DNA of 64,000 bases. It comes from Microbispora hainanensis. GTDB lineage: Bacteria; Actinomycetota; Actinomycetes; Streptosporangiales; Streptosporangiaceae. The notes beneath the pieces were generated by a model. That model worked only from the letters and a program-made list of their open reading frames with translations, ran no database searches and had not been told where the DNA came from. A program made the position numbers and the translations under genes. The stretch spans positions 1,674,001 through 1,738,000 of the forward strand of contig NZ_CP108086.1 in assembly GCF_036186745.1 (NCBI RefSeq). The letters run 5' to 3'. Numbering within the stretch: the first letter of the stretch is position 1; the number at the start of each line of letters is the position of its first letter. Of the stretch, positions 10,600 to 33,227 are shown piece by piece.

Positions 10600-12426
10600 T
10601 TACTCGGATCGGCCGGTGGCACGGCAGCGGCGGTGGACCTCGTCCACCCGTTCAGTGAGGCCCTTGCGGTCGAGGTGTTCCAGCAGCGGCACCGCGACCC
10701 TGCGGCTGGTGCCGAGCACGCTCCTGGCCTGGCTGACCGTGAACGGCTGCGGCAGCCGGGCCAGCAGCGCCGCCGCGCCCGCGTCCGCGCCCGGCGCGAG
10801 CACGATGCCCTCGGCCACGCGCAGCAGCGCCCCGGCGCGTACGGCGGCGGCGAGCTCGCGTGGTCCGAGTCCCAGCTCCGCCAGCCGCCCGGCGTCCGGC
10901 GCCTGGAACGGAGCCGTGGCCAGGTCGTCCAGCAGGGCCCGCACCGCCCGGGCCACGGGGGCGGGCAGCCCGGCCGTCCCGGTCACGACGCGGCCCGCCG
11001 TGGTGATCCGCCCGTCGGCCACCGTCAGCGGCGGGCGTACGAGCGCCGTCACGAGCCGCCGGTCGGGCAGGCCCAGCTCGTGGCGGGCGGCCTCCACCGG
11101 CATCCCCGGCTCCAGAGGATGATCGGCGGCGTACCGCCGTACGACCTCGGGGAGACGAGCCGACAGCTCCGCCCAGTGATCGGGGTCGGCGTGCCAGCCG
11201 GCGGCCACCGGCCGTCCCGTGGGCGGGCAGCCCATCGCGAGCAGCTCGCCGTCGCGCAGCAGCAGGTGCGTACGCAGGAGCGACGCGGCGTCCGCCGACG
11301 CGTCCGCCAGCGCCTTCGCCCGTTCCCTGGCCGCGCCCCGGCGGCGCAGCTCCGGAGGGCGTACGTCGAGCACGGTCGCCCGCGCGAGCACCCGCAGCTC
11401 GCCCTGTCCCCGGCCCGGGTCGCGCAGCAGCAGCGCGTCGCCCACGTGCAGGGGAAGCGGCCGGGCCAGGCGTAGCCGGGCCGCCACACTTTCGGCACTT
11501 TCGGCACTTTCGGCCTCCGCGCCGAGCGGGCGCACCTCGCACGGCACCGCCGCCGAGCCGATGTGGGCGGTGAGCCGCGCGGGAAGCGGCCCGCGTGCGC
11601 CTTCCGCCATCGTCACGCGTACGTCGGCCAGGCTCGTCGCCGTCCAGGCGCCGGGCGTGACGAGGGCGTGGCCGCGTTGCGGCGCGATCCGCCCGCGCAG
11701 GTTGAGCGCCACCCGCGCGACCCCGGTGACCGACTCGACGTGCTCCTTGAGCGACTCCAGGGCGCGTACCCGCACCGGCTCGCCGTCCAGCTCCAGTTCG
11801 TCGCCCGTCGCGACGCGGCCGGCGGGCAGCGTGCCGGTCACGACGGTGCCGCTGCCGCGCACGCTGAACGCCCGGTCGATCCACAGCCGTACGGGGGCCT
11901 GCGGATCGGGCGCGGGCAGCGCCGCCACCAGCCGGTCGAGGGCCGCCCGCAGCCCGTCGAGGCCCTCACCGGTGCGCCCGCTCACCGCCAATGCCTCCAC
12001 CTCGCCCAGCCCGGCCTCCGCCAGCCGGGCGCGCGCGTCCTCCAGGGCGGGCGCGGGGTCGGCGAGGTCCGCGCGGGTGACGGCGAGCAGGCCATGCCGT
12101 ACGCCGAGGGTGCGCAGCGCGACCAGATGCTCCTGCGACTGGGGCATCCACCCCTCGTCGGCGGCGACGACGAACATCACGGCGGGCACCGGGCCGACAC
12201 CGGCGAGCATCGTGCCGAGGAAGCGTTCGTGCCCGGGGACGTCGACGAACGCCACCCGTTCCCCCGAGGGCAGCGTCGTCCAGGCGTAGCCCAGCTCGAT
12301 CGTGAGCCCACGGCGCCGCTCCTCCGCCAGCCGGTCGGGCTCCATCCCGGTCAGCGCCCGCACCAGCGTCGACTTGCCGTGGTCGACGTGCCCGGCCGTG
12401 GCCACGACATGCGTTCCCGGGGCCAT
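10600..12426 (-). CDS. selB: Selenocysteine-specific translation elongation factor SelB
   Basis: SelB is the GTPase that carries Sec-tRNA(Sec) to the ribosome and recognises the SECIS hairpin in selenoprotein mRNA. The protein has 608 residues from ATG 12426, which overlaps the last base of the selA TGA. G1 is at residues 12-20 (GHVDHGKST), followed by the switch region ERRRGLTIELGYAW, G3 as VDVPGHERF, and G4 as TRAD. The EF-Tu-like domains II and III follow (RAFSVRGSGTVVTGTLPAG). The C-terminal third contains winged-helix repeats that bind SECIS RNA, ending ARSVLGTSRRVAVPLLEHLD and the usual LTERVDEVHRR. Length and domain order are normal for the family. It forms an operon with selA. Confidence 0.97.
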   Translation of the reverse strand: MAPGTHVVATAGHVDHGKSTLVRALTGMEPDRLAEERRRGLTIELGYAWTTLPSGERVAFVDVPGHERFLGTMLAGVGPVPAVMFVVAADEGWMPQSQEHLVALRTLGVRHGLLAVTRADLADPAPALEDARARLAEAGLGEVEALAVSGRTGEGLDGLRAALDRLVAALPAPDPQAPVRLWIDRAFSVRGSGTVVTGTLPAGRVATGDELELDGEPVRVRALESLKEHVESVTGVARVALNLRGRIAPQRGHALVTPGAWTATSLADVRVTMAEGARGPLPARLTAHIGSAAVPCEVRPLGAEAESAESAESVAARLRLARPLPLHVGDALLLRDPGRGQGELRVLARATVLDVRPPELRRRGAARERAKALADASADAASLLRTHLLLRDGELLAMGCPPTGRPVAAGWHADPDHWAELSARLPEVVRRYAADHPLEPGMPVEAARHELGLPDRRLVTALVRPPLTVADGRITTAGRVVTGTAGLPAPVARAVRALLDDLATAPFQAPDAGRLAELGLGPRELAAAVRAGALLRVAEGIVLAPGADAGAAALLARLPQPFTVSQARSVLGTSRRVAVPLLEHLDRKGLTERVDEVHRRCRATGRSE

Positions 12427-13715
12427 CAGGAGGCCGCCCTGAGGACGGCCGCGAGGACCTCGCCGTCCAGGTCCGGCGGCACGGCGCGCAGGTCGAGCAG
12501 CAGGCGTCCCCCCTCGACCCGGCCGACGACCGGCGGCTCGCCGCGCCGCAGCGGTCCAGCCAGCCGTTCCGGCAGGCTCACCGCCGTGCTCGGCAGGCGC
12601 ACTCCGGGGGCTCCGCCCCCGCCCACGGTCGCCTCCGTGGTCACGGCCGCCGCGTCCACACCCGCCTGGCACAGCGCCTTGGCCAGCGCCTCGGCCCGCT
12701 CCCCGAGGATGATCGGATCGGCGTGGAGAGCCTGCCGTACGGGCGGCTCCGGGCCCCGCAGCGTCGCCTCCAGGGCGGCCAGCGTCAGCTTGTCCACGCG
12801 CAGCGCACGGGCGAGCGGGTGCCGCCTGAGCCGTTCGACCAGGTCGCTGCGGCCGAGCAGCAAACCGGCCTGCGGACCGCCGAGCAGCTTGTCGCCGCTC
12901 GCGGTGACGAGGTCGGCGCCGACCCGCAGCACGCTCGCGGCGTCGGGCTCCTCCGGCAGGAGCGGATCACGGTCGAGCAGCCCCGAACCGATGTCGACGA
13001 CCACCGGCACGCCCAGCCCGGTCAGCTCGGCCACCTCGACCGAGCCGGTGAAGCCCTCGACCCGGAAGTTCGACGGGTGGACCTTGAGCACGAACCCCGT
13101 CTGCGGCCCGATCGCGTCCCGATAGTCGGCCAGGGCGGTGCGGTTGGTCGTGCCCACTTCGCGTAGCCGCGCGCCGGTGGACACGAGCAGGTCGGGGATG
13201 CGGAATCCGTCGCCGATCTCGACCAGCTCGCCCCTGCTGATCACGATCTCCCGTCCGGCGGCGAGCGCGGTGGCGGCCAGCACGAGGGCGGCGGCGTTGT
13301 TGTTGACCACGTGGACGCCCTCGGCGTCGGGCACGGCCCGGGCGAGCGCCTCGATCGCGCCGCGTCCCCGGCGGGCACGCGCTCCCGACTCCAGGTCGAA
13401 CTCCACGTCGGTCGCCCCAGCCGCCACCGTCACCGCCTCGACGGCGGCCGGCGACAGCGGCGCGCGGCCCAGGTTCGTGTGGAGCAGCACGCCGGTCATG
13501 TTGACGACGGGCCGCAGGCTCGTGGCGTGGCGCGGCAGCGCCGCCAGCGCGACGTCGGCGACGTCCTCCGGTTCGATCTCGCCCTGCCGCACCCGCTGCT
13601 GCGCGTGCACGACCGCGTCCTTGACCGCCGTACGGCCGAGCCGCTCGACGGCGGCGACCAGCCGCGGATCGGCCAGCACGGCGTCGGTGCGCGGCACCCG
13701 CCTCCGTGGATCCAC
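12426..13715 (-). CDS. selA: L-seryl-tRNA(Sec) selenium transferase SelA
   Basis: SelA is the PLP enzyme that converts Ser-tRNA(Sec) to Sec-tRNA(Sec) using selenophosphate. The protein has 429 residues with a GTG start at 13715. RPVVNMTGVLLHTNLGRAPL is the highly conserved entry to the PLP domain. VHVVNNNAAALVLAATALA and SRGELVEIGDGFRIPDL follow, and the Schiff-base lysine is in TASGDKLLGGPQAG (Lys276). The N-terminal helix bundle needed for tRNA binding is present (residues 10-60). The 1-base overlap of its stop with selB shows co-transcription and coupling. The length is slightly under that of E. coli SelA (463) but usual for actinobacteria. Confidence 0.97.
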   Translation of the reverse strand: MDPRRRVPRTDAVLADPRLVAAVERLGRTAVKDAVVHAQQRVRQGEIEPEDVADVALAALPRHATSLRPVVNMTGVLLHTNLGRAPLSPAAVEAVTVAAGATDVEFDLESGARARRGRGAIEALARAVPDAEGVHVVNNNAAALVLAATALAAGREIVISRGELVEIGDGFRIPDLLVSTGARLREVGTTNRTALADYRDAIGPQTGFVLKVHPSNFRVEGFTGSVEVAELTGLGVPVVVDIGSGLLDRDPLLPEEPDAASVLRVGADLVTASGDKLLGGPQAGLLLGRSDLVERLRRHPLARALRVDKLTLAALEATLRGPEPPVRQALHADPIILGERAEALAKALCQAGVDAAAVTTEATVGGGGAPGVRLPSTAVSLPERLAGPLRRGEPPVVGRVEGGRLLLDLRAVPPDLDGEVLAAVLRAAS

Positions 13716-14205: not shown

Positions 14206-14967
14206 ATGGACGTGCGGGACCACGCCGCTGCCGGACCGCACCGGAAGCCGGCGATTCGAGCCGGTACGGCGAACGGGCGCGGCGTGCTCGAAGGGGCGTT
14301 CCACCTGCTCGACGTGCTGGCGGCGGCCGAGGAGGGAGCCGGTCTGTCCGAGCTCGCCCGCGACGCCGGCATGCCGAAGGCGACCACCTATCGCCTGCTG
14401 CGGCAGCTCGCCGACCTCGGCGCGGTGCACCAGCACGGGCAGCGCTACTTCGTGGGGCGGCGGCTCGCCCTCCTGGGCGACGCCTGGCAGCCCGACCCGC
14501 GGCTGCGGGCCGCCGCCCGCGAACCCGTACGCCTGCTGTCGGCGCTGACCACGACCGTCGTGTTCCTCACCGCGCTGGAAGGAGACCGGGTCAAGGTGAT
14601 CACGGTGGCGCGGGGAGAGATCAAGGAGGTGCCGCCGATCCTGCCGGGCTCCGAGCTTGCCGAGGCGACCGCCGCGGGCCGGGTGTTGCTGACGCAGAGA
14701 CCGGACGGCGACGCCGCGCCGCCGGGGTTCACGCTCACCGAATGGCGGCGGGCCCAGGCGGCCCTCCGCCGGTCGGGTTCGGTCGCCGTAGATCACCATG
14801 AGGTGATGCCCGGGGTCTGCTGCGTGGCCGCACCGGTCCGGCGCCCGGAAGGCGAGATCGTCGCGTCCATCAGCGCGCTGGCGGTGCGACCGGCGGTGCC
14901 GGCCGGGCTCACCGAACTCGTACTGCGCGCGTCGCGGGAGATCACCCGCAACCTCGGCCGCACCTGA
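14206..14967 (+). CDS. IclR-family transcriptional regulator
   Basis: The protein has 253 residues from ATG 14206, preceded by GGGAGGGAAG. It has an N-terminal winged helix-turn-helix (GVLEGAFHLLDVLAAAEEGA, then LSELARDAGMPKATTYRLLR) and a C-terminal GAF-like effector domain (VRLLSALTTTVVFLTALEGD, then ELAEATAAGRVLL). It ends in a region with paired Cys (GVCCVAAPVR) common in IclR effector domains. IclR proteins respond to small metabolites and regulate neighbouring catabolic genes, but none is adjacent here. It faces the nuclease-like gene on the other strand. Confidence 0.92.
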   Translation: MDVRDHAAAGPHRKPAIRAGTANGRGVLEGAFHLLDVLAAAEEGAGLSELARDAGMPKATTYRLLRQLADLGAVHQHGQRYFVGRRLALLGDAWQPDPRLRAAAREPVRLLSALTTTVVFLTALEGDRVKVITVARGEIKEVPPILPGSELAEATAAGRVLLTQRPDGDAAPPGFTLTEWRRAQAALRRSGSVAVDHHEVMPGVCCVAAPVRRPEGEIVASISALAVRPAVPAGLTELVLRASREITRNLGRT

Positions 14968-15997: not shown

Positions 15998-16104
15998 GAC
16001 ACGGAATGTCATCAACAAATTACTATGAGTAGTCGCCGCCTTGGCTCGGCTGCCGCAGGGCCGAGGCCAGGCCACAGGCTTGGCAGAGGAAGGCGAACGG
16101 TGAG

Positions 16105-16197
16105 CGGAGGTGGACGGGAATCGAACCCGCCAGGCCGAGGACCTCGGCCTCGTCGGTTTTGAAGACCGCGGGGGCCACCAGGCGCCCACACACCTCC
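16105..16197 (-). tRNA. selC: tRNA-Sec (anticodon TCA)
   Basis: The 93-nt gene reads 5' GGAGGTG ... CCACCTCC G 3' on the minus strand. The anticodon loop CTTCAAA contains TCA, complementary to UGA. The long variable arm pairs GAGGCCGAGG with CCTCGGCCT. The T arm contains GGGTTCGATTCCC. Both the length and the long extra arm are specific to tRNA-Sec. No CCA is encoded. It lies about 90 bp from selD, read in the opposite direction. Confidence 0.95.
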
Positions 16198-16289
16198 AGG
16201 AAGAAACCTAACCGGTACGGGGTAGGGACCCTGGGCGACGCCCCGCGGCAGGCGGCGTGACGGACGGACGACGCGAGGACGGGTGCGAC

Positions 16290-17303
16290 ATGACCGAGAC
16301 GGCGGACCGGGCCGGGATCCGGCTGACCCAGCAGGCACACGGAGGCGGCTGCGCCTGCAAGATTCCCCCGGGTGAGCTGGAGAGCATCGTGGCCGGGCTC
16401 GTGGCCCCCGACCCCTCGGCGTACGCGAACGAACTGGTCATCGGGCTGGACGACGGCGACGACGCGGCCGTGGTCAGGATCGAGGGCGGCCGGGCGGTCG
16501 TCGCCACCGCCGACTTCTTCACGCCCGTCGTGGACGACCCGTACGACTGGGGGCGCATCGCGGCGACCAACGCGCTGTCCGACGTGTACGCGGTGGGCGG
16601 CGAGCCGGTCGTGGCGGTGAACCTGCTGGGCTGGCCCAGGGAGAGGCTGGCCATGGACCTCGCCAGGGAGGTGCTGCGCGGGGGCCTGGACGTGGCGCGG
16701 GCGGCGGGCTGCCACGTCGCGGGCGGGCACAGCATTGACGACCCCGAGCCCAAGTACGGCATGGCGGTCACCGGCCTGGCCGACCCCGACCGGCTGCTGC
16801 GCATCGACGCGGGACGGGCGGGGACGCCGATCTCCCTCACCAAACCGCTCGGCGTGGGCGTGCTCAACACGCGGCACAAGGCGACCGGAGAGGTGTTCCC
16901 GCAGGCGGTCGAGGTCATGACGACGCTCAACCGGGACGCCTCGCGGGCGGCGCTGGAGGCGGGGGCGAGGTGCGCGACCGACGTGACCGGATTCGGTCTG
17001 CTCGGCCATCTCTACAAGCTGGCCAGGGCGAGCGGCGTCACGGCGGTGGTCGACGTGGCGGCCGTGCCCTACCTGGAGGGTGCACGGCAGGCGGTGCACG
17101 ACGGCTACGTCAGCGGCGGCACCCGCCGCAATCTGGAGTGGGTCCGCGCCCATCTCGATCCTGGCCGCTTCGGGGAGGAGGACCTGCTCCTGCTGGCCGA
17201 CGCCCAGACCTCGGGCGGCCTGCTGGTCGCCGGCGAGATCCCCGGCGCGCCGGTCGTCGGCGTACTCGTCCCGGCCGGGGACGCCGCGATCCGGCTCGCC
17301 TGA
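16290..17303 (+). CDS. selD: Selenide, water dikinase SelD (selenophosphate synthase)
   Basis: SelD makes selenophosphate from selenide and ATP, the selenium donor for SelA. I prefer ATG 16290 (337 residues), which gives the usual short N-terminus; GTG 16257 would add 11 residues. The catalytic segment GGGCACK has Cys21 at the position that is Cys or Sec in the family, followed by Lys24. So this SelD is not itself a selenoprotein. ATP-binding Asp-rich stretches are present (GLDDGDDAAVVR and ATADFFTPVVDDPYDWGRI), as are GGHSIDDPEPKYG and TDVTGFGLLGHL. The gene stands divergent from selC, forming a compact sel locus with selBA 3 kb away. Confidence 0.97.
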   Translation: MTETADRAGIRLTQQAHGGGCACKIPPGELESIVAGLVAPDPSAYANELVIGLDDGDDAAVVRIEGGRAVVATADFFTPVVDDPYDWGRIAATNALSDVYAVGGEPVVAVNLLGWPRERLAMDLAREVLRGGLDVARAAGCHVAGGHSIDDPEPKYGMAVTGLADPDRLLRIDAGRAGTPISLTKPLGVGVLNTRHKATGEVFPQAVEVMTTLNRDASRAALEAGARCATDVTGFGLLGHLYKLARASGVTAVVDVAAVPYLEGARQAVHDGYVSGGTRRNLEWVRAHLDPGRFGEEDLLLLADAQTSGGLLVAGEIPGAPVVGVLVPAGDAAIRLA

Positions 17304-17350: not shown

Positions 17351-17890
17351 ATGCGACCTGAGCCCGGCGAGGTGCTGCATTTTTCCGAGGACCCCGAGAT
17401 CACCCGATTCGTCCCGCACGTGGCCGCCACCGCACGGCAGCCGGAGGCGTACGTCTGGGCGGTGACGGCCGAGCGCTGCCCCGACTACTGGTTCCCCCGC
17501 CAGTGTCCGCGGGCCATGGCCTGGACGACCCCGGCGACCACCGGCGACGACCGCGACCGGATCATCGGGCCGGGCTGCGGCGAGCGGGTCCACGCCATCG
17601 AGTACGGCTGGCTGGAGGCGTTCCTGAGCGTCCGCCTGTACGCCTACCGCTTCCCGGCGGAGAAGTTCGTCCCGTTCGGGGAGCCGGTGCCGAGCGCGGT
17701 GGTCGCCACCGAGCCCGTCACACCCCTCGGGCCGCCCGAACCCGTCGGCGACCTGCTGCGGCTGCACGAGGAGGCCGGCATCCAGCTCAGGGTGCTGGAC
17801 AACCTCTGGCCGTTCTGGGACGCGGTGACCACCAGTTCCCTGGGCTGGAGCGGCATCCGCCTCCGCAACGCCCGCCCCCACCCGGCTTAG
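17351..17890 (+). CDS. Conserved hypothetical protein (DUF6886-like)
   Basis: The protein has 179 residues and starts MRPEPGEVLHFSEDPEITRF. This opening, followed by FVPHVAATARQPEAYVWAV and CPDYWFPRQCPRAMAW, belongs to a widespread actinobacterial and firmicute family of unknown function. I match it to DUF6886 from memory, so the name is provisional. It has no signal peptide or membrane segment. It starts 47 bp after selD on the same strand and might be read with it, although the family is also found far from sel genes. Confidence 0.75.
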   Translation: MRPEPGEVLHFSEDPEITRFVPHVAATARQPEAYVWAVTAERCPDYWFPRQCPRAMAWTTPATTGDDRDRIIGPGCGERVHAIEYGWLEAFLSVRLYAYRFPAEKFVPFGEPVPSAVVATEPVTPLGPPEPVGDLLRLHEEAGIQLRVLDNLWPFWDAVTTSSLGWSGIRLRNARPHPA

Positions 17891-24327: not shown

Positions 24328-25263
24328 TCAGCGGCCGGGGACAGAGGCGGGGCGGCCCGCGTCGAGGCGGTCACGCTGCGGCACGACGGTGTACTTGGGG
24401 TCCCTGGCCGAGGCCCGGCCCGCCGCCAGCACCCCGAACCGGGTGCACAGCGCTCCGGCCGTGATCGCCACTGCGGACAGCGCGGTGAGGGCCCGGCTCC
24501 GCCCGGCGACCGTGGCGAGCAGGCCGCCGCCGAGGGTGAGCACGCGGGAGGCCCGCATGAGCCTGCCCGCCCTGCCCGTCCGGTACGGCTCGCCGACCAG
24601 GCCGAGGCGGTGCTCCAGCAGCCCGCCGGCGACGATCTCGGCCATGGCGCCCGCCGCCGCGGCGGTGCGGGCGGGCCCCGCCAGCGCCCGGGGCGTGGTC
24701 AGCATGACGGCCGCGCCCGCCGAGGCGAGCGCGCTCCCGGCGAACAGGAACGGCAGCTCGCGCATGCCCTCGTGCCAGGCGGGGACGGCGGTGTCGGCCA
24801 GCAGGACGGCCGTGTAGGTGGCCATCGCCACGCCGCTCAGGCCGCTCGCGACCGACGCGGCGTCGCCCGCGAAGGGCAGCAGGCCGGTCACCGCGGAGCC
24901 CGCCGCGACTCCGGCCAGCCCGCTGTGGGCGGCCAGCGTCCACGAGCCGACGCTCATCGGCGAGGTGAGCTTGAACACCCGCAGCATGTTGAGGAAGCGC
25001 ATCGGCCTGCCCAGCTCGGCCACGAGGAAGACGGTTCCGGCGCCCGCCCCGGCGAAGGCGGCCATGCGGGCGGCCAGCCCCAGCCGATCCCGCCCGGTGA
25101 GGCGGGCGGCCGCCGCCATCACGCCCGCCGCGCCGGACAGCCCGCCCAGATAGAGGTACGCCGGCATGTGGGGCTCGTGCCAGAGGGGCTGCTTGATGAC
25201 CGGCTGGCCGTAGTAGGACCGGAACTCGGCGTCCGGCACCATCTCGTCGCGCCGCCTCGGCAT
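24328..25263 (-). CDS. NrfD/PsrC-like membrane subunit of formate dehydrogenase
   Basis: The protein has 311 residues from ATG 25263 with GGGGAGGA upstream. It opens with FRSYYGQPVIKQPLWHEPHM and PAYLYLGGLSGAAG, the usual start of NrfD-type quinone-reactive membrane subunits. About eight membrane helices follow, with LGRPMRFLNMLRVFKLTSPM and PVKW-type charged loops. In complexes of this kind the subunit passes electrons from the iron-sulfur subunit to menaquinone, instead of the cytochrome b subunit FdnI. It is the last gene of the fdh operon, 118 bp after fdhB. Confidence 0.9.
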   Translation of the reverse strand: MPRRRDEMVPDAEFRSYYGQPVIKQPLWHEPHMPAYLYLGGLSGAAGVMAAAARLTGRDRLGLAARMAAFAGAGAGTVFLVAELGRPMRFLNMLRVFKLTSPMSVGSWTLAAHSGLAGVAAGSAVTGLLPFAGDAASVASGLSGVAMATYTAVLLADTAVPAWHEGMRELPFLFAGSALASAGAAVMLTTPRALAGPARTAAAAGAMAEIVAGGLLEHRLGLVGEPYRTGRAGRLMRASRVLTLGGGLLATVAGRSRALTALSAVAITAGALCTRFGVLAAGRASARDPKYTVVPQRDRLDAGRPASVPGR

Positions 25264-25381: not shown

Positions 25382-26131
25382 TCACGGCTTTCTCCGTACG
25401 AACGAGACGGCCACTCCGGCGGCCACGGCGAGCGCGGCGCCGCCGGCCCAGCGCCACATCGCGGGCAGGTCGCGGGTGGTCACCACGGGATCGGGCGGCA
25501 GGCCGTACGTCTCGGGCTCGTCCAACAAGAGGAAGAAGGCACCCGTGCCGCCCACGCCGTTGTCCGGGTCCGCGCCGTACAGCCGGGCCTCGGTCGTACC
25601 CTCGGCGTGCAGCCGTTCGACCCGTTCCTCGGCCCGCTGCCGCAGCTCGTCGAGCGGCCCGAACTGGATGGACTTCGTCGGGCACGCCTTGGCGCAGGCG
25701 GGCTCCATGCCGCCGCGCAGGCGGTCGTAGCAGAGCGTGCACTTCCAGGCCCGGCCGTCGTCCTGCCTGCGGTCGATCACGCCGTACGGGCAGGCGGGCA
25801 CGCAGTAGCCGCAGCCGTTGCAGACGTCGGGCTGGACGACGACGGTGTCGAACTCGGTGCGGAACAACGCGCCGGTGGGGCAGACGTCGAGGCAGGCGGC
25901 GTGGGTGCAGTGCTTGCACACGTCGGACGACATCAGCCACCGGCCGTCCTGCTCGATGAACGCGACATGCCGCCAGGTGCTCGCGCCGAGCGCGCCGGTG
26001 TTGTCGTAGGAGGTGGCCCGGAACACGAACCCGTCGTCGGGCACGTCGTTCCACTCCTTGCAGGCCACCTCGCAGGCCTTGCATCCGATGCAGATGGACG
26101 TGTCGGTGAAGAACCCCACCCGCTCAGCCAT
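25382..26131 (-). CDS. fdhB: Formate dehydrogenase iron-sulfur subunit (four [4Fe-4S] clusters)
   Basis: The protein has 249 residues from ATG 26131, overlapping fdhA by 8 bases. Cys motifs for four [4Fe-4S] clusters are in order: CIGCKACEVACKEWN, CKHCTHAACLDVCPTGAL, CNGCGYCVPACPYGVI and CTLCYDRLRGGMEPACAKAC. A single hydrophobic segment near the C-terminus (WAGGAALAVAAGVAVSFV) anchors it to the membrane, as in FdnH. It carries electrons from the molybdenum/tungsten subunit to the NrfD-like subunit. Confidence 0.96.
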   Translation of the reverse strand: MAERVGFFTDTSICIGCKACEVACKEWNDVPDDGFVFRATSYDNTGALGASTWRHVAFIEQDGRWLMSSDVCKHCTHAACLDVCPTGALFRTEFDTVVVQPDVCNGCGYCVPACPYGVIDRRQDDGRAWKCTLCYDRLRGGMEPACAKACPTKSIQFGPLDELRQRAEERVERLHAEGTTEARLYGADPDNGVGGTGAFFLLLDEPETYGLPPDPVVTTRDLPAMWRWAGGAALAVAAGVAVSFVRRKP

Positions 26132-29100
26132 GGCGATACCTCTCGATCAGGTCGAGCAGCGCCGGGCCGCGCGGGCGGCGTCCGGGCAGGACGTCGCAGG
26201 TGCCGGCCTTGCTCTCCTGGATGTAGACGTTCGGGTCGAGCACGATCGACGGCAGGTCGTTGACGACGTCCCCGGTGATCACCCCGCCGCTGCTGTATCC
26301 CCAGTGGTACGGCATGACGATCTGGTGGACGACCTTCCCGTTGAGCCGCAGGGGCCGTACGCGGCCGGTGACGAGCACGCGCAGCTCGATCGCGGTGCGC
26401 GCGGTGACGATCGTCGCCCAGTCGCCGTTGTCCAGGCCGAGCTCCTCGGCCATCTCCCGCGACATCTCGCAGAACGCCTCCGGCTGGAGCTCCGCCAGGT
26501 ACGGCAGGGGCCTGCTCATGGCGCCCGTCGTGTGGTGCTCGGTGAGCCTGCTCGTCGTGTAGACGTACGGGAACCGGGGCGACAGCGCCGGGTTGTACGG
26601 GTTCTCCGGGTGGTCGATGGTGCGGCGGGCCGGGTTGGCCTGCTGACCGTAGAGCGCGTTGCGCACGGGCGACTCGTGCGGCTCGTAGTGGGCGGGCAGC
26701 GGCCCGTCGGACAGGCCGGACGGGACGTACAGCCAGCCCCTGCCGTCCGACTGCATGATGAACGGGTCGGTGCCGGCCAGCGCGTGCTCGGCCTTGGCCC
26801 CCTCGGGCGGCACGTAGTCGGGCGCCTTGTCCTCCTCGAAGTCGGGCACGTCCGGCCCGGTCCACTTGGCGCCGTCCCAGTAGACGTACTTCTTGCGTTC
26901 GCTCCACGGGCGGCCCTGGGGGTCGGCCGAGGCGCGGTTGTAGAGGACGCGCCGGTTGGCCGGCCAGGCCCAGCCCCATTCGAGCGCGACCGGGCCCTGC
27001 TCGGTGTGGGGGGTGCGCCGGGCCGCCATGTTGACCCCGTCGGCGTACACCCCGCAGTAGATCCAGCAGCCGCAGCTCGTCGAGCCGTCGGGCTTCAGCT
27101 CACGCAGCGACGCCAGCAGGCGGCCGTCGGCGGCCCGGCCGTTGATCTCGCGCAGCACGGCCGCGGCGTCGGGGTCGCGCTGCGCGCCGACCTCCGGGTA
27201 GTCCCAGGTCAGCTCCTTGACCGGCCGGTCGATGTCGTCGTCGCCGAGCCGCTGCCTGATCCGCTTGCCGAGGTGGTAGTAGAACCACAGGTCGCTGCGG
27301 CAGTCGCCGGGCGGGTCGAGGGCCTTCTCGCGCCACTGCAGCAGCCGCTGGGTGTTGGTGAACGTGCCCTCCTTCTCCACATGGCTCGCGGCGGGCATGA
27401 AGAAGACCTCGGTGCCGATCTCCTCGGTGCGCAGCTCGCCCGTCTCGATCTCGGGCGCGTCCTTCCAGAACGTCGCGGTCTCGACCAGCACGAGGTCGCG
27501 GACCACCAGCCATTCGAGGTTGGCCAGGCCCAGCCGCTGCGCTCTGCCGTTGGCCGAGCCGACCGCCGGGTTCTCGCCCACGACGAAGTAGCCCTTGACC
27601 GTGCCGTCGATCTGGCCCATCACGGTCGCGTAGTGGCCGTGGTCGCCGGTGAGGCGCGGCAGGTAGTCGAAGCAGTAGTCGTTGGCCTCCGTCGCCGCGT
27701 CGCCCCACCACGCCTTGAGCAGGCTGACGACGTACGCCCGCCGGTTGCCCCACCAGCCGGTGTCGGCGCCCTCGCGTTCCAGGTAGTGGTCGAGGCCCTC
27801 GTGCCGGTGGGCGTGCGGCATCGCGATGTAGCCCGGCAGCAGGTTGAACAGGGTCGGGATGTCGGTGGAGCCCTGGATGCTCGCGTGGCCGCGCAGCGCC
27901 ATGATGCCGCCGCCCGGCCGGCCCATGTTGCCCAGCAGGAGCTGCAGGATCGCGGCGGCCCTGATGTACTGCACCCCGACCGAGTGCTGCGTCCAGCCCA
28001 CCGAGTAGACCCACGCCGTGGTCCGCTCGCGGCCCGAGTTGGCCGTGATCGCCTCGGCCAGCTCGTGGAACAGCTCGGGCGGGATGCCGCACAGCTCCTC
28101 GACCATCTCCGGCGTGTAGCGGGAGTAGTGCCGCTTGACGATCTGGTAGACGCACCGCGGGTCGGTCAGCGTCGGGTCCTGGGGCGGCGTCGCGCTCGCG
28201 CCCGCGCCGCGCGCGCCGTACGAGTCGGACCCCGCCGCCTCCGCGTGGCGCTCGTCGCCCTCGACCGGCTCCTCCTGCTCGGGCACGTCGCCCTCGTACG
28301 CCCAGCTCGACGGGTCATACCTGCCGGTCTCCTCGTCGAAGCCGGAGAACAGGCCGTCGAGGTCCTCGGTGTCGCGGAAGTCCCGGTTCACCAGCGTCGC
28401 GGCGTTCGTGTACGCGAGGACGTACTCGCGGAAGTCGAGCCCGTTCGACAGCACATAGTTGATCAGCGCGCCGAGCAGGACGATGTCAGTACCGGCCCGG
28501 ATCGGCAGATACCTGTCCACGGTCGCACTCGTACGGCTGAAGCGCGGGTCGATGTGGAAGACCTTCGCGCCGCGCGCCCGCGCCTCCATCACCCACTGGT
28601 AGCCCACCGGATGGCACTCGGCCATGTTGGAGCCCTGGATGACGATGCAGTCGGCGTTGGCCAGGTCCTGCTGAGGCTGGGTCGCGCCGCCACGCCCGAA
28701 GCTGGTCCCCAGACCGGGGACGGTGGAGGAGTGTCATATGCGCGCCTGGTTCTCGACCTGGATCGCGCCGAGGGCGGTGTAGAGCTTCTTCATCAGGTAG
28801 TTCTCTTCGTTGTCGAGCGTCGCCCCGCCCAGGCTGGCGATGCCCAGAGTCCTCCTGACCTCCCGCCCCTCGTGCGTCTGCTGCCAGGTCTCGCGCCGGG
28901 TCCGCACGACCCGATCGGCGATCATGTCCATCGCGGTTTCGAGGTCGAGCGGCTCCCACTCGGTGCCGTACGGCCTGCGGTAGAGCACCGTCGTCTGACG
29001 GCCGGGGTGGGTGACGAGCTGCTTGCTGGCCGATCCCTTCGGGCACAGCCGCCCCCGCGAGATCGGCGAGGCGGGGTCGCCCTCGATCTGGGTGACCCTG

Positions 29101-29291
29101 CCGTCCTTGACGTAGACGAGCTGGCCGCAGCCCACCGCGCAGTAGGGGCAGACGGACCGCGCGACCGTCTCGGCGTCCTCGACGCGGGGCCGCAGGGCGT
29201 CCGTACGCGCCGAGCGCGCCGCCCGCCCTCTGCCGTCCTCTCCCTTGAGCTGCCGGATCACCGGCCAGCGGGAGAGCCATCCACCACCCAC
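26124..29291 (-). CDS. fdhA: Selenocysteine-containing formate dehydrogenase, catalytic subunit (in-frame TGA at 28734-28736)
   Basis: This enzyme oxidises formate to CO2 at a molybdenum or tungsten bis-pyranopterin centre. The GTG start is at 29291. The frame runs 185 codons to TGA at 28736-28734 and then continues open, without frameshift, to 26124, giving 1055 residues with Sec186. Cys48, Cys51, Cys55 and Cys83 bind an N-terminal [4Fe-4S] cluster. The context is NQARI-Sec-HSSTVPGLGTSFGRG. The His after Sec and this surrounding sequence are exactly those of FDH-N/O-type enzymes. The second half has the MopB domains (IQGSNMAECHPVGYQW, GHASIQGSTDIPTLF) and the dinucleotide-binding end. No twin-arginine signal is visible at the N-terminus. 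A SECIS hairpin follows the TGA, and selA, selB, selC and selD are all in the window. The gene begins 30 bp after the SARP gene. Confidence 0.96.
28705..28736 (-). promoter_or_regulatory. SECIS element directing selenocysteine insertion in fdhA
   Basis: Twelve bases after the TGA the minus strand has GTCCCC, a GGTCT loop, then GGGGAC: a perfect 6-bp upper stem with a five-base loop. The apical GGTCT matches the SelB-binding loop of the E. coli fdhF SECIS, and the distance from TGA also fits. Confidence 0.92.
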
Positions 29292-29320: not shown

Positions 29321-32227
29321 CTAATCACGAGATATCGCCGCGTCGCCCACCACCCGCCGGGACGTGACCGCGTGGAGGTAGCCGCGGGCGAGCGCGCGCC
29401 GCCCGGACGAACGGTGCAGCTCGCCGAGCAGCCGCCGCGTGGCCGCCTCCCCGCTCCGGTCGCCGAGCTGCCGGAAGATCGCCAGCGAGCTTTCCAGCCG
29501 GGCCGAGCCGTTCCGCCAGTCGCCCCTGGCCGCCTGGAGCCCGCCCAGGCCCTGCATCGCGTACGCCGCGCAGTGCCGGTCGCCATAGCCCTCGAAGATC
29601 GTCAGCGCCCGGCCCTGGGCGCGCATCGCCCGCCCGGTCTCGCCCGCGAGGTCGTGCAGGCGGCCGATCTGGAGCGACACGCAGCCCTCCCGGTGGGCGT
29701 CCCCGAGCTCGCGCGCCATGCGCAGCGCGCCGCCGAGCCAGTCGGCGGCGCCGTTCAGGTCGCCCGCGCTCAGGCAGCCGCGCCCGAGCGCCTGCCGCGC
29801 GTACGCCTCACCGGAGCGGTCGTCGAGCGACACGAACATCGCGAGGGCCCGGCGGAAGTGCCGGGCCGCGGCGACGTGGTCGCCCCTGAACTGGCCGACC
29901 GCGCCCAGCCCGCAGACCGACACGGCCTCGCCCCTGACGTCCCCGAGCATGCGGAAGAGCAGCCGGGAGCGGCGGAACATGCCGGCCGCCTGGGCGTACC
30001 TGTCCCGATAGAGGGCCACCTGGCCGAGCCCGCGCAGCATGGCGGCCTCCCCCGCCCGGTCTCCTGCGGCGCGGGCGGCCTCCAGGGCGACGCGGTGGGT
30101 CTCCTCCCACGCGCCGAGGTGACAGCGCAGGTCGAAGTACGGCACGAGCGCCGCCGCCAGGCCCCAGGCGGCGCCGGTCAGCCCCGCCTCCGCGGCCAGC
30201 CGTACGGCCTCGACCAGGGTCTCGTGCTCGGCGCCGAACCAGGAGACCGGATGGGCGCCGACCCGGCGCAGGGCGTCGTCGGGCAGCCGCCAGCGCCGGG
30301 CGGCGGGCGAGGTCAGGCGGAAGACCGTGGTGGGCAGGCGGGCCGTGGCGTGTTCCGCGGCGGCCGTCCAGCCCGCGACCACGCGCGCCAGCGCCGGCAT
30401 GTCCAGCTCGCCCGCCTTGTCCCTGGCGTCGACGCGCAGCAGGTCGGGCAGCCGATATCGGGGCTGGCCGAGGGGATCGGTGCCCACCGGGCGCAGCAGG
30501 TTCGCGTCGACCAGCACGTCGGTCACGGCGTCGCTGCGGTGCCGGTCGAGCACCGCGTCGACCACCCAGCCGGGCAGCGGCCGGGTGCCGAGCAGTCCGA
30601 GCGCCCGGAACGTGCGCGCGGCGTCGTCGGGCAGCAGGCGATAGCTGCGGTCGAAGGACTCCCGCACCACCAGATCGCCGGCGCGCAGCTCGGCCAGCCT
30701 GACCGTCTCGTCGTCGAGCCGCCGCCGCAGCACGGCCGGGGACCAGCCGGGACGGGCGGCCAGCCGCGCCCCGGCCACCCGGATCGCGAGCGGCAGCCGG
30801 CCACAGGCCCGCACGATGGCGGCGGCCTCCTCCGGCTCCCGCTCCAGCCGCTCCGCGCCGACGATCGCCGTCAGCAGCTCCAGCGCCTCCGCCTGGGGCA
30901 GGACGTCCAGGTCGATACGGGCGGCGCCGGGCAGTTCGGTGATGCGGCGTCTGCCGGTGACGACGACGGCGCTGCCGCCGCCCGGCAGCAGCGGCCCCAC
31001 CTGCGCGGCGCCCGCCGCGTCGTCGAGCACGACCAGCATCGGCCGTACGGCGAGCAGCGTGCGGTAGAGCGCGGCGCGCTCGTGAACGGTGGGCGGCAGC
31101 GGCTCCGCCGCGTCCAGCGCACGCAGTGCCTCGGCCAGCAGCTCTCCCGGCTCCGCCGGTGATCCCGCCGCGCCGTCCCGCGGGTCGGTGCCGCCGAGCG
31201 ACAGGAAGAGCTGGCCGTGCGGGTACGCCTCGCGGACGGCGTGGGCGCAGCGCACCGCGAGCGCGGTCTTGCCGACGCCCGGCGGCCCGGTGACGACGGC
31301 GACCCCGCCCGGGGCGAGCGCCCGGGTCAGCGCCGCGACCTCGGCGGCCCGCCCGGTGAAGTCCACCAGGTCCGGCGGCAGCTGACGCGGCACGACGGGG
31401 TGAGCGCCGCCGCCGGAACGGGTGGCGGGCTTGATGGGCTTGACGATGAGGCCGTGCTTGGCGGGTGGTCGTGGGGGCGGCTCCCCGGCGAGCACTGCAG
31501 CGTGCGCCCGGCGCAGCTCGGGCCCCGGCCCGACGCCGAGCTCGCTCACGAGGTGTTCGCGGATCGTGCCGAAGGCGCGCAGCGCCTCACCCTGCCGTCC
31601 CGACCAGTGCAGGGCCAGCATGAGCCTGCCCCACAGGTCCTCGCGGAAAGGATGGTCGGCGAGCAGGGCGCGCAGCTCCCCGGCCGCCTCGCCGTACTCT
31701 CCGGCCGCCATCAGCAGCTCGACCAGGTCTTCCGCGGCGCGCAGCCGTGCCTGCGCGAGCCGTCCGAGCCTGCGGTCCCACAGCGGGCTGCCGGGCAGAT
31801 CGGACAGCGGGACGCCCTGCCACAGCGCCAGCGCCCGTGCCAGCAGGCCGGCCGCCTCGTCCGGCCGGCCCCGCGCCCGGCGCTCCCGCGCGGCGGTCAC
31901 CCGCTCCTCGAACAGCAGCAGGTCGAGCTCATGTGGCGGCAGCTCGATCGCGTACCCCGACCCGATGGCCCGGATGCGAGCCGGGGCGGGCCCGAGCTCC
32001 GCGCGCAGCGCGCTCGCGTACGTGCGGAGGTTGGCCGCGGCCGAGCGCGGCCGGTGGTCCGGCCACAGCACCTCGGCGAGCTCGTCGCCGCCGACGGTGT
32101 GGTTGGCGTGGAGGAGAAGGGTGGCCAGGAGCATGCGGGGCTTCGGCCCGCCGAGCCGTGGCGTCGTGCCCGGCAGGCGGACCTCCAGGGGACCGAGCAC
32201 GCTGAACATAGGCCGATCGACTGTCAT
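29321..32227 (-). CDS. SARP/AfsR-type regulator: BTAD, NB-ARC and TPR domains
   Basis: The protein has 968 residues from ATG 32227 with GAGGAG upstream. It has an OmpR-like winged helix at residues 8-95 (FSVLGPLEVRLPGTTPRLGG, then LAEVLWPDHRP), then a bacterial transcriptional activation domain (about 100-250). A nucleotide-binding NB-ARC region follows, with P-loop GPPGVGKTALAVR and the Walker B run PMLVVLDDA, and at least six C-terminal TPR-like repeats (YRDRYAQAAGMFRRSRLLF and similar). Such regulators often control secondary metabolism. It is divergent from the M23 peptidase gene and lies just before fdhA on the same strand, so either could be its target. Confidence 0.93.
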   Translation of the reverse strand: MTVDRPMFSVLGPLEVRLPGTTPRLGGPKPRMLLATLLLHANHTVGGDELAEVLWPDHRPRSAAANLRTYASALRAELGPAPARIRAIGSGYAIELPPHELDLLLFEERVTAARERRARGRPDEAAGLLARALALWQGVPLSDLPGSPLWDRRLGRLAQARLRAAEDLVELLMAAGEYGEAAGELRALLADHPFREDLWGRLMLALHWSGRQGEALRAFGTIREHLVSELGVGPGPELRRAHAAVLAGEPPPRPPAKHGLIVKPIKPATRSGGGAHPVVPRQLPPDLVDFTGRAAEVAALTRALAPGGVAVVTGPPGVGKTALAVRCAHAVREAYPHGQLFLSLGGTDPRDGAAGSPAEPGELLAEALRALDAAEPLPPTVHERAALYRTLLAVRPMLVVLDDAAGAAQVGPLLPGGGSAVVVTGRRRITELPGAARIDLDVLPQAEALELLTAIVGAERLEREPEEAAAIVRACGRLPLAIRVAGARLAARPGWSPAVLRRRLDDETVRLAELRAGDLVVRESFDRSYRLLPDDAARTFRALGLLGTRPLPGWVVDAVLDRHRSDAVTDVLVDANLLRPVGTDPLGQPRYRLPDLLRVDARDKAGELDMPALARVVAGWTAAAEHATARLPTTVFRLTSPAARRWRLPDDALRRVGAHPVSWFGAEHETLVEAVRLAAEAGLTGAAWGLAAALVPYFDLRCHLGAWEETHRVALEAARAAGDRAGEAAMLRGLGQVALYRDRYAQAAGMFRRSRLLFRMLGDVRGEAVSVCGLGAVGQFRGDHVAAARHFRRALAMFVSLDDRSGEAYARQALGRGCLSAGDLNGAADWLGGALRMARELGDAHREGCVSLQIGRLHDLAGETGRAMRAQGRALTIFEGYGDRHCAAYAMQGLGGLQAARGDWRNGSARLESSLAIFRQLGDRSGEAATRRLLGELHRSSGRRALARGYLHAVTSRRVVGDAAISRD

Positions 32228-32327
32228 GACCGTGTTGCTCCTCGAAGGACCGGTTCGCCATGACTCGCGCAGTCTTTGTACCCAACTCTTGATGTTTTTT
32301 GTGCGGCAGATTCCGACTCTTTTGGTC

Positions 32328-33227
32328 ATGAGACTCAAATCGCTTGTCACGGCGGGTTTCGCGCTGGTCCTGGGCCTCGCGTTCGGCACCGCCACCGCCC
32401 CGGCGGCCTCCGCAGCGGGTGCGCGCCCGAACTTCCAGATGCCGTTCCCCTGTGGCCAGACCTGGACGGGCAACTCCAGCGCGAGCAGCGCCCACCAGTC
32501 GTACGAGATCGACTTCAACCGGGGCAGCACGGCCGACGCCGACTACGGCGACACGGTCGTGGCCGCGGCGGCCGGCACCGTCGTCATCTCGGCCCACCAG
32601 GGCTCGACGAACGGCTTCGGCAACCTCATCAAGATCGACCACGGTGGCGGCTGGTTCACCTACTACGCCCACCTGAGCGTGCGCTCGGTGGGCGAGGGGG
32701 CCCACGTGAACCAGGGTCAGAAGATCGGCGAGGTCGGCAACACCAGCAAGCCGGGCAACAACATCTCCCCGCACCTGCACTACGAGGTGCGCACGAGCGA
32801 CACGACCTACCCCGCCAACATCCAGAAGGCGGTGTTCAACGGGGTCACCTTCGGCTACCCCGCGCAGACCGTGACCTCGCAGAACTGCGGCGGCGGATCG
32901 ACCAACCCATACACCCCGCAGGAGGTCTGCGGCAGCGGCTACTCGGTGATCGACTCGGCCGGCCTCGGCTCGGCGGGCACCGTCTATCTGCTCTACAACT
33001 CCGGCAACGGCTACAACTGCGTCGTCACGTTGAAGAAGACCTCGCTGGGCACGCCCACCGCGACCACCGCCTACCTGGAGGTCAAGGGCAAGAGCCGGGT
33101 GACCGACTCGGGCAACTTCGGCTACTACGCCGGACCGGTGCGCGCCTCGGCCGCCGGCACCTGCGTCAAGTGGGGCGGCAAGGCGGGCTCGAACACCTAC
33201 GACAGCCCCTTCGAGCACTGCGGCTGA
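32328..33227 (+). CDS. Secreted M23-family peptidase with a C-terminal repeat domain
   Basis: The protein has 299 residues from ATG 32328. The signal peptide MRLKSLVTAGFALVLGLAFG ends near ASA. The LytM/M23 domain (residues 33-180) has AHQSYEIDFNRG, GWFTYYAHLSV and SPHLHYEV, which provide the zinc ligands. Together these cut peptide cross-links in peptidoglycan. After a GGGS linker, the last 107 residues form a Cys-containing domain almost identical to that of the next gene. There is no evident ribosome binding site. The gene is 5 bp from the amidase gene, so the two form one unit. Confidence 0.92.
   Translation: MRLKSLVTAGFALVLGLAFGTATAPAASAAGARPNFQMPFPCGQTWTGNSSASSAHQSYEIDFNRGSTADADYGDTVVAAAAGTVVISAHQGSTNGFGNLIKIDHGGGWFTYYAHLSVRSVGEGAHVNQGQKIGEVGNTSKPGNNISPHLHYEVRTSDTTYPANIQKAVFNGVTFGYPAQTVTSQNCGGGSTNPYTPQEVCGSGYSVIDSAGLGSAGTVYLLYNSGNGYNCVVTLKKTSLGTPTATTAYLEVKGKSRVTDSGNFGYYAGPVRASAAGTCVKWGGKAGSNTYDSPFEHCG
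32904..33227 (+). repeat. First copy of a 324-bp duplicated coding domain
   Basis: This segment matches 34436-34759 base for base over long stretches. It encodes the C-terminal domain from NPYTP through SPFEHCG. Only a handful of codons differ. Confidence 0.93.

Follow-up and report, generated by a model that had tools for sequence, protein, structure and literature searches.

The 64,000-nt window (the whole stretch of DNA analysed here) encodes, with a probability that we place at about 97%, a membrane-bound, selenocysteine (Sec)-containing molybdenum/tungsten formate dehydrogenase (FDH), FdhABC, whose Sec would be specified by a UGA codon together with a hairpin in the mRNA. The gene for the catalytic subunit, fdhA, occupies 26124-29291 on the minus strand and, as the original prediction had it, forms one frame (29291-26124; 1,055 codons) whose sole internal stop is a TGA at 28736-28734, codon 186. 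The residues around this codon are NQARI-U-HSSTVPGL, and the tryptic peptide across Sec186 would, from the sequence, be I-U-HSSTVPGLGTSFGR. Standard gene calling splits the gene, also as predicted: the mechanical ORF list cuts it into pieces of 185 and 833 amino acids, the second starting at 28625. Translation likely begins at the GTG at 29291, since AGAGG stands just 5' of it, the frame ahead of it translates as VVGGGWLSRWPV, and the homologue of Microbispora amethystogenes (L002) reads MGAGWLSRWPV, with an ATG start, at the matching point. The homologues share this start position, and their N-termini look alike by eye, with a conserved W..SWPV.RQ segment. Among all PF00384 matches in the genome, fdhA is the only gene with an internal stop. 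UGSC (NF041046), a known actinobacterial selenoprotein, had no match in this genome in a search in which the controls also gave no match.

Translated with the TGA as Sec, FdhA scored 1908.1 bits against the NCBIfam family NF041513 (formate_DH_Act; cut-off 1400), covering profile positions 2-1066 of 1067, and 889.7 bits against TIGR01553 (FDH-N alpha; cut-off 814). Among solved structures, the nearest are alpha chains of Sec-containing FDHs (9qm0, 30gj and 6sdv), followed by E. coli FDH-N (1kqf); the top match, 9qm0, aligns EHQARI-C-HSPTVPAL at the Sec site, with U shown as C. The assignment to the FDH-N/O type stood in part: the TIGR01553 score lies above its cut-off and the Sec site aligns in 9qm0, but the export signal of FdnG is lacking and the protein belongs to an actinobacterial family of its own, NF041513. 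No hydrophobic export h-region of the E. coli FdnG Tat-signal type was found before the CPYCAVGC motif, and because a Tat-like signal is missing, FdhA probably faces the cytoplasm.

Homologous loci were collected by a scan of GTDB genomes, from which the best 80 loci were kept, and further genomes of the class were added. All of the best 80 loci carry a stop codon at the site: TAG in Geodermatophilaceae and in one Frankiales metagenome-assembled genome, and TGA in the rest. In total, 102 distinct Sec-type sites (74 TGA and 28 TAG) were compared with 22 Cys-type sites (TGC or TGT); one more Cys site (L116) was found later and is outside the 22. A sequencing error at the TGA, or decay of fdhA into a pseudogene, would look alike in leaving a single in-frame stop inside a long gene. 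The same TGA and hairpin occur, however, in every Microbispora sequence examined (L001-L004, L023 and L131-L135, from two collections that possibly share species), which excludes the error that the original prediction had wished to see checked, as well as in dozens of other genera; moreover, the remainder of the frame is intact, and the retention of TGA or TAG at 102 distinct homologous sites had already refuted this extremely improbable reading. It is also very improbable that fdhA ends at the TGA and that a second gene starting at 28625 encodes a separate protein, although this is the picture given by the plain ORF list: the TGA falls within the molybdopterin-binding domain, at the codon for the metal ligand, the Cys forms read through without a stop and with the same flanks (NQARVCHSST), and the hairpin is confined to sites with a stop codon.

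The hairpin itself (28721-28705, minus strand) reads GTCCCC-GGTCT-GGGGAC, a perfect 6-bp stem with a 5-nt loop, separated from the TGA by a spacer of 12 nt (28733-28722), exactly as had been described from the sequence, and RNAfold folds the fdhA sequence into that stem. In folding energy it does not surpass shuffled sequence (z = -0.09), so the thermodynamics of the single sequence gives no support for a SECIS and is uninformative as a test; for this reason, comparative tests were used. The same z value, together with the recovery of a 6/6 stem in 19% of synonymous redraws of HSSTVPGLGT (window codon usage), could suggest a mere by-product of the G+C-rich coding sequence for VPGLGT with no RNA function. 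Against this, the stem with a GGTCT loop arose in only 0.9% of the redraws, and the loop holds GGT, which is rare among the Gly codons (25 of 511); two synonymous sites covary and the stem is lost in all Cys forms, which leaves the by-product reading with a very small probability. On both strands of the 64 kb, only one site combines a TGA with such a hairpin after it. A point against the SECIS is that the window stem appears to lack the bulged U and the long lower helix that the SECIS of E. coli fdhF has.

All six pairs can form in 100 of the 102 Sec-type sites, and the loop follows the pattern [GA]GT[CT]T without exception (GGTCT in 94, AGTCT in 5 and AGTTT in 3). None of the 22 Cys-type sites has the 6/6 stem; they retain 3-5 pairs around a variable loop. 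The third pair is formed by the wobble bases of a Val and a Gly codon and occurs as C-G, U-A, G-C, G-U or U-G; it is intact in 102/102 Sec forms, where 65 would be expected under independence, vs 8/22 Cys forms, with 6.8 expected. The outermost pair shows one double change, from G-C to A-U. Over 29 distinct sequences the covariation score was 0.302 vs 0.124 for shuffled alignments, none of 500 shuffles scored as high, and the covariation was gone when the stem was slid by one base. Because both covarying positions are synonymous, selection at the stem acts on the RNA rather than on the protein, and at the level of sequence we regard the comparative evidence as decisive for the hairpin. The Sec-containing formate dehydrogenase with a SECIS that was originally predicted is thus upheld by the family score, the conserved stop, the covarying hairpin, the Cys-form control and the presence of selA, selB, selD and tRNA-Sec in the window. 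In the first Ser codon after Sec-His (28733-28728 in the window, and in its relatives), TCN is mostly used in Sec forms vs AGC/AGT in Cys forms, as in TGACACTCC and TGCCACAGC, respectively; this bias hints at a possible constraint also 5' of the stem.

An NF041513 member scoring above the cut-off was found in 107 of the 395 sampled genomes of the class, and about 87 of the 395, as we counted them, carry a member with an internal TGA or TAG, the position of the stop having been checked in the fetched loci only. Selenoproteins had been expected to be uncommon in actinobacteria, an expectation that this frequency of Sec-type family members contradicts. The count leaves out L109 (genome G284), a Cys-form FDH with Cys at the active site and an extra in-frame TGA at residue 823 (numbered from the CPYC motif), a position occupied by Trp in the window protein (GKG*LFAP vs GRGWLYVP); this TGA is a lesion or a sequencing error. 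In a tree of 68 family members, the Cys forms group in one clade, with UGA forms as its nearest neighbours, and a second clade holds the UAG forms. Two changes explain the UGA, UAG and Cys states; with midpoint rooting as drawn, these would be a single switch from Sec to Cys and a single one from UGA to UAG. Within the window's own family, genomes G131 and G324 each contain a Cys paralogue and a Sec paralogue. We lean towards the view that the SECIS of actinobacterial FDHs is a compact one (6-bp stem, 5-nt loop and no bulged U) and has left its mark on the protein as well. On this reading, Val/Ile-Pro-Gly/Ser-Leu would be retained in Sec forms since its CCC and GGT/AGT codons form the stem and the loop, and the Val-(Ala/Val/Ser)-Gly-Leu of the single Cys-coded clade would be expected once the hairpin was unneeded.

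All four genes of the Sec-decoding trait are present inside the window, and by gene content the organism is predicted to be able to make Sec. The tRNA-Sec gene, selC (16104-16197, minus strand; anticodon UCA), was detected by ARAGORN and by RF01852 (75.1 bits; gathering threshold 47) and is the sole tRNA-Sec match above the cut-off in the genome. Divergent from it is selD, for selenophosphate synthetase (16257-17303, plus strand), which has AIRS domains, lacks an internal stop and matches TIGR00476 with 384 bits (cut-off 125) over G000:1690320-1691237, i.e., 16320-17237 in the window. Selenocysteine synthase is encoded by selA (12426-13715, minus strand; TIGR00474, 437 bits, cut-off 268), and the Sec-specific elongation factor with a C-terminal winged helix by selB (10600-12411, minus strand; TIGR00475, 260 bits, cut-off 242; PF09107 SelB-wing_3), whose open frame extends to 12672 and whose true start we infer to be near 12411. 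An IclR-family regulator (14206-14967, plus strand) lies between selA and tRNA-Sec, and a DUF6886 protein (232 bits; 17351-17890, plus strand), from a family of unknown function, just 3' of selD. The FDH accessory protein FdhD is encoded elsewhere in the genome, outside the window. Of the scanned loci, 17 of 26 with TGA have a UCA tRNA-Sec no more than 10 kb from fdhA, vs none of 24 with TAG. ARAGORN and Rfam scans found no CUA tRNA-Sec within 10 kb of the TAG-type fdh genes; in one TAG-type genome (G391), a tRNA with a CUA anticodon, located away from fdh, scores above the Rfam tRNA-Sec cut-off, which agrees with the published UAG-Sec of Geodermatophilaceae (Mukai et al. 2016, as cited in PMC5330540).

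Two further subunit genes follow fdhA on the minus strand. The end of fdhA is overlapped by 8 bp by fdhB (25382-26131), which encodes a 4Fe-4S electron-transfer subunit (PF13247; TIGR01582 FDH-beta, 187 bits, below the equivalog cut-off of 335) that has a hydrophobic segment towards its C-terminus, around residues 227-246. An NrfD-like membrane subunit (PF03916 NrfD, E=5e-11), probably a quinone-reducing anchor, is encoded by fdhC (24328-25263). Directly upstream of the operon lies a large SARP/BTAD-NB-ARC-TPR regulator (29321-32530, minus strand), which could regulate fdh or belong to something else. In the proposed mechanism, Sec-tRNA(UCA) would be supplied by SelA, SelD and tRNA-Sec, whose genes lie in the window at a distance of about 7-19 kb, and SelB carrying it would bind the hairpin (loop GGUCU) 12 nt past the UGA, so that in this strain Sec would be inserted at FdhA residue 186. 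Sec186 would coordinate the metal, presumably molybdenum or tungsten, and take part in formate oxidation, with electrons presumably flowing from FdhB via the NrfD-like subunit to menaquinone.

Neither the enzyme family nor its mode of decoding is new to actinobacteria, where both are common, given the Sec-FDH of Actinomycetospora (PMC7176365), the FDH alpha subunit as one of the most widespread bacterial selenoproteins (PMC5029168) and the existing NCBI family NF041513; a literature search for a selenoprotein FDH of Streptosporangium found no paper. The locus offers a clean, correct selenoprotein call in a gene that naive callers split. The family forms a natural experiment in which UGA, UAG and Cys forms occur within one enzyme and the hairpin comes and goes with the stop codon, making the set well-controlled material for testing SelB recognition and Sec loss.

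Compared with known systems, the window protein is a typical member of NF041513, with the same start region (W..SWPV.RQ..G) and the same Sec/Cys site, and its architecture and Sec site are those of E. coli FdnG/FDH-N (1KQF) and Desulfovibrio FdhAB (6SDV). Its membrane subunit is of the NrfD type, whereas FdnI of E. coli FDH-N is a cytochrome b. The UAG-Sec formate dehydrogenases of Geodermatophilaceae belong to the same FDH family and share the hairpin, which is unchanged in the TAG-type loci (among L034-L080 and L130; L043 is the Frankiales genome), but use TAG and a CUA tRNA-Sec instead of TGA and UCA. Sec-FDH1 of Actinomycetospora chiangmaiensis DSM 45062, a membrane enzyme with an alpha subunit of 1,078 aa and beta and gamma subunits, resembles the window system in being a Sec-containing membrane FDH with two further subunits; formate removal by that organism is selenite-dependent, and SelA, SelB, SelD and Sec-FDH subunits were detected in its proteome (PMC7176365). 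Its FDH1 cluster lists selA and selB (PMC7176365), whereas the fdh and sel genes of the window are about 7-19 kb apart, and it has three Sec-FDH systems, compared with a single PF00384 gene with an internal stop in the genome studied here.
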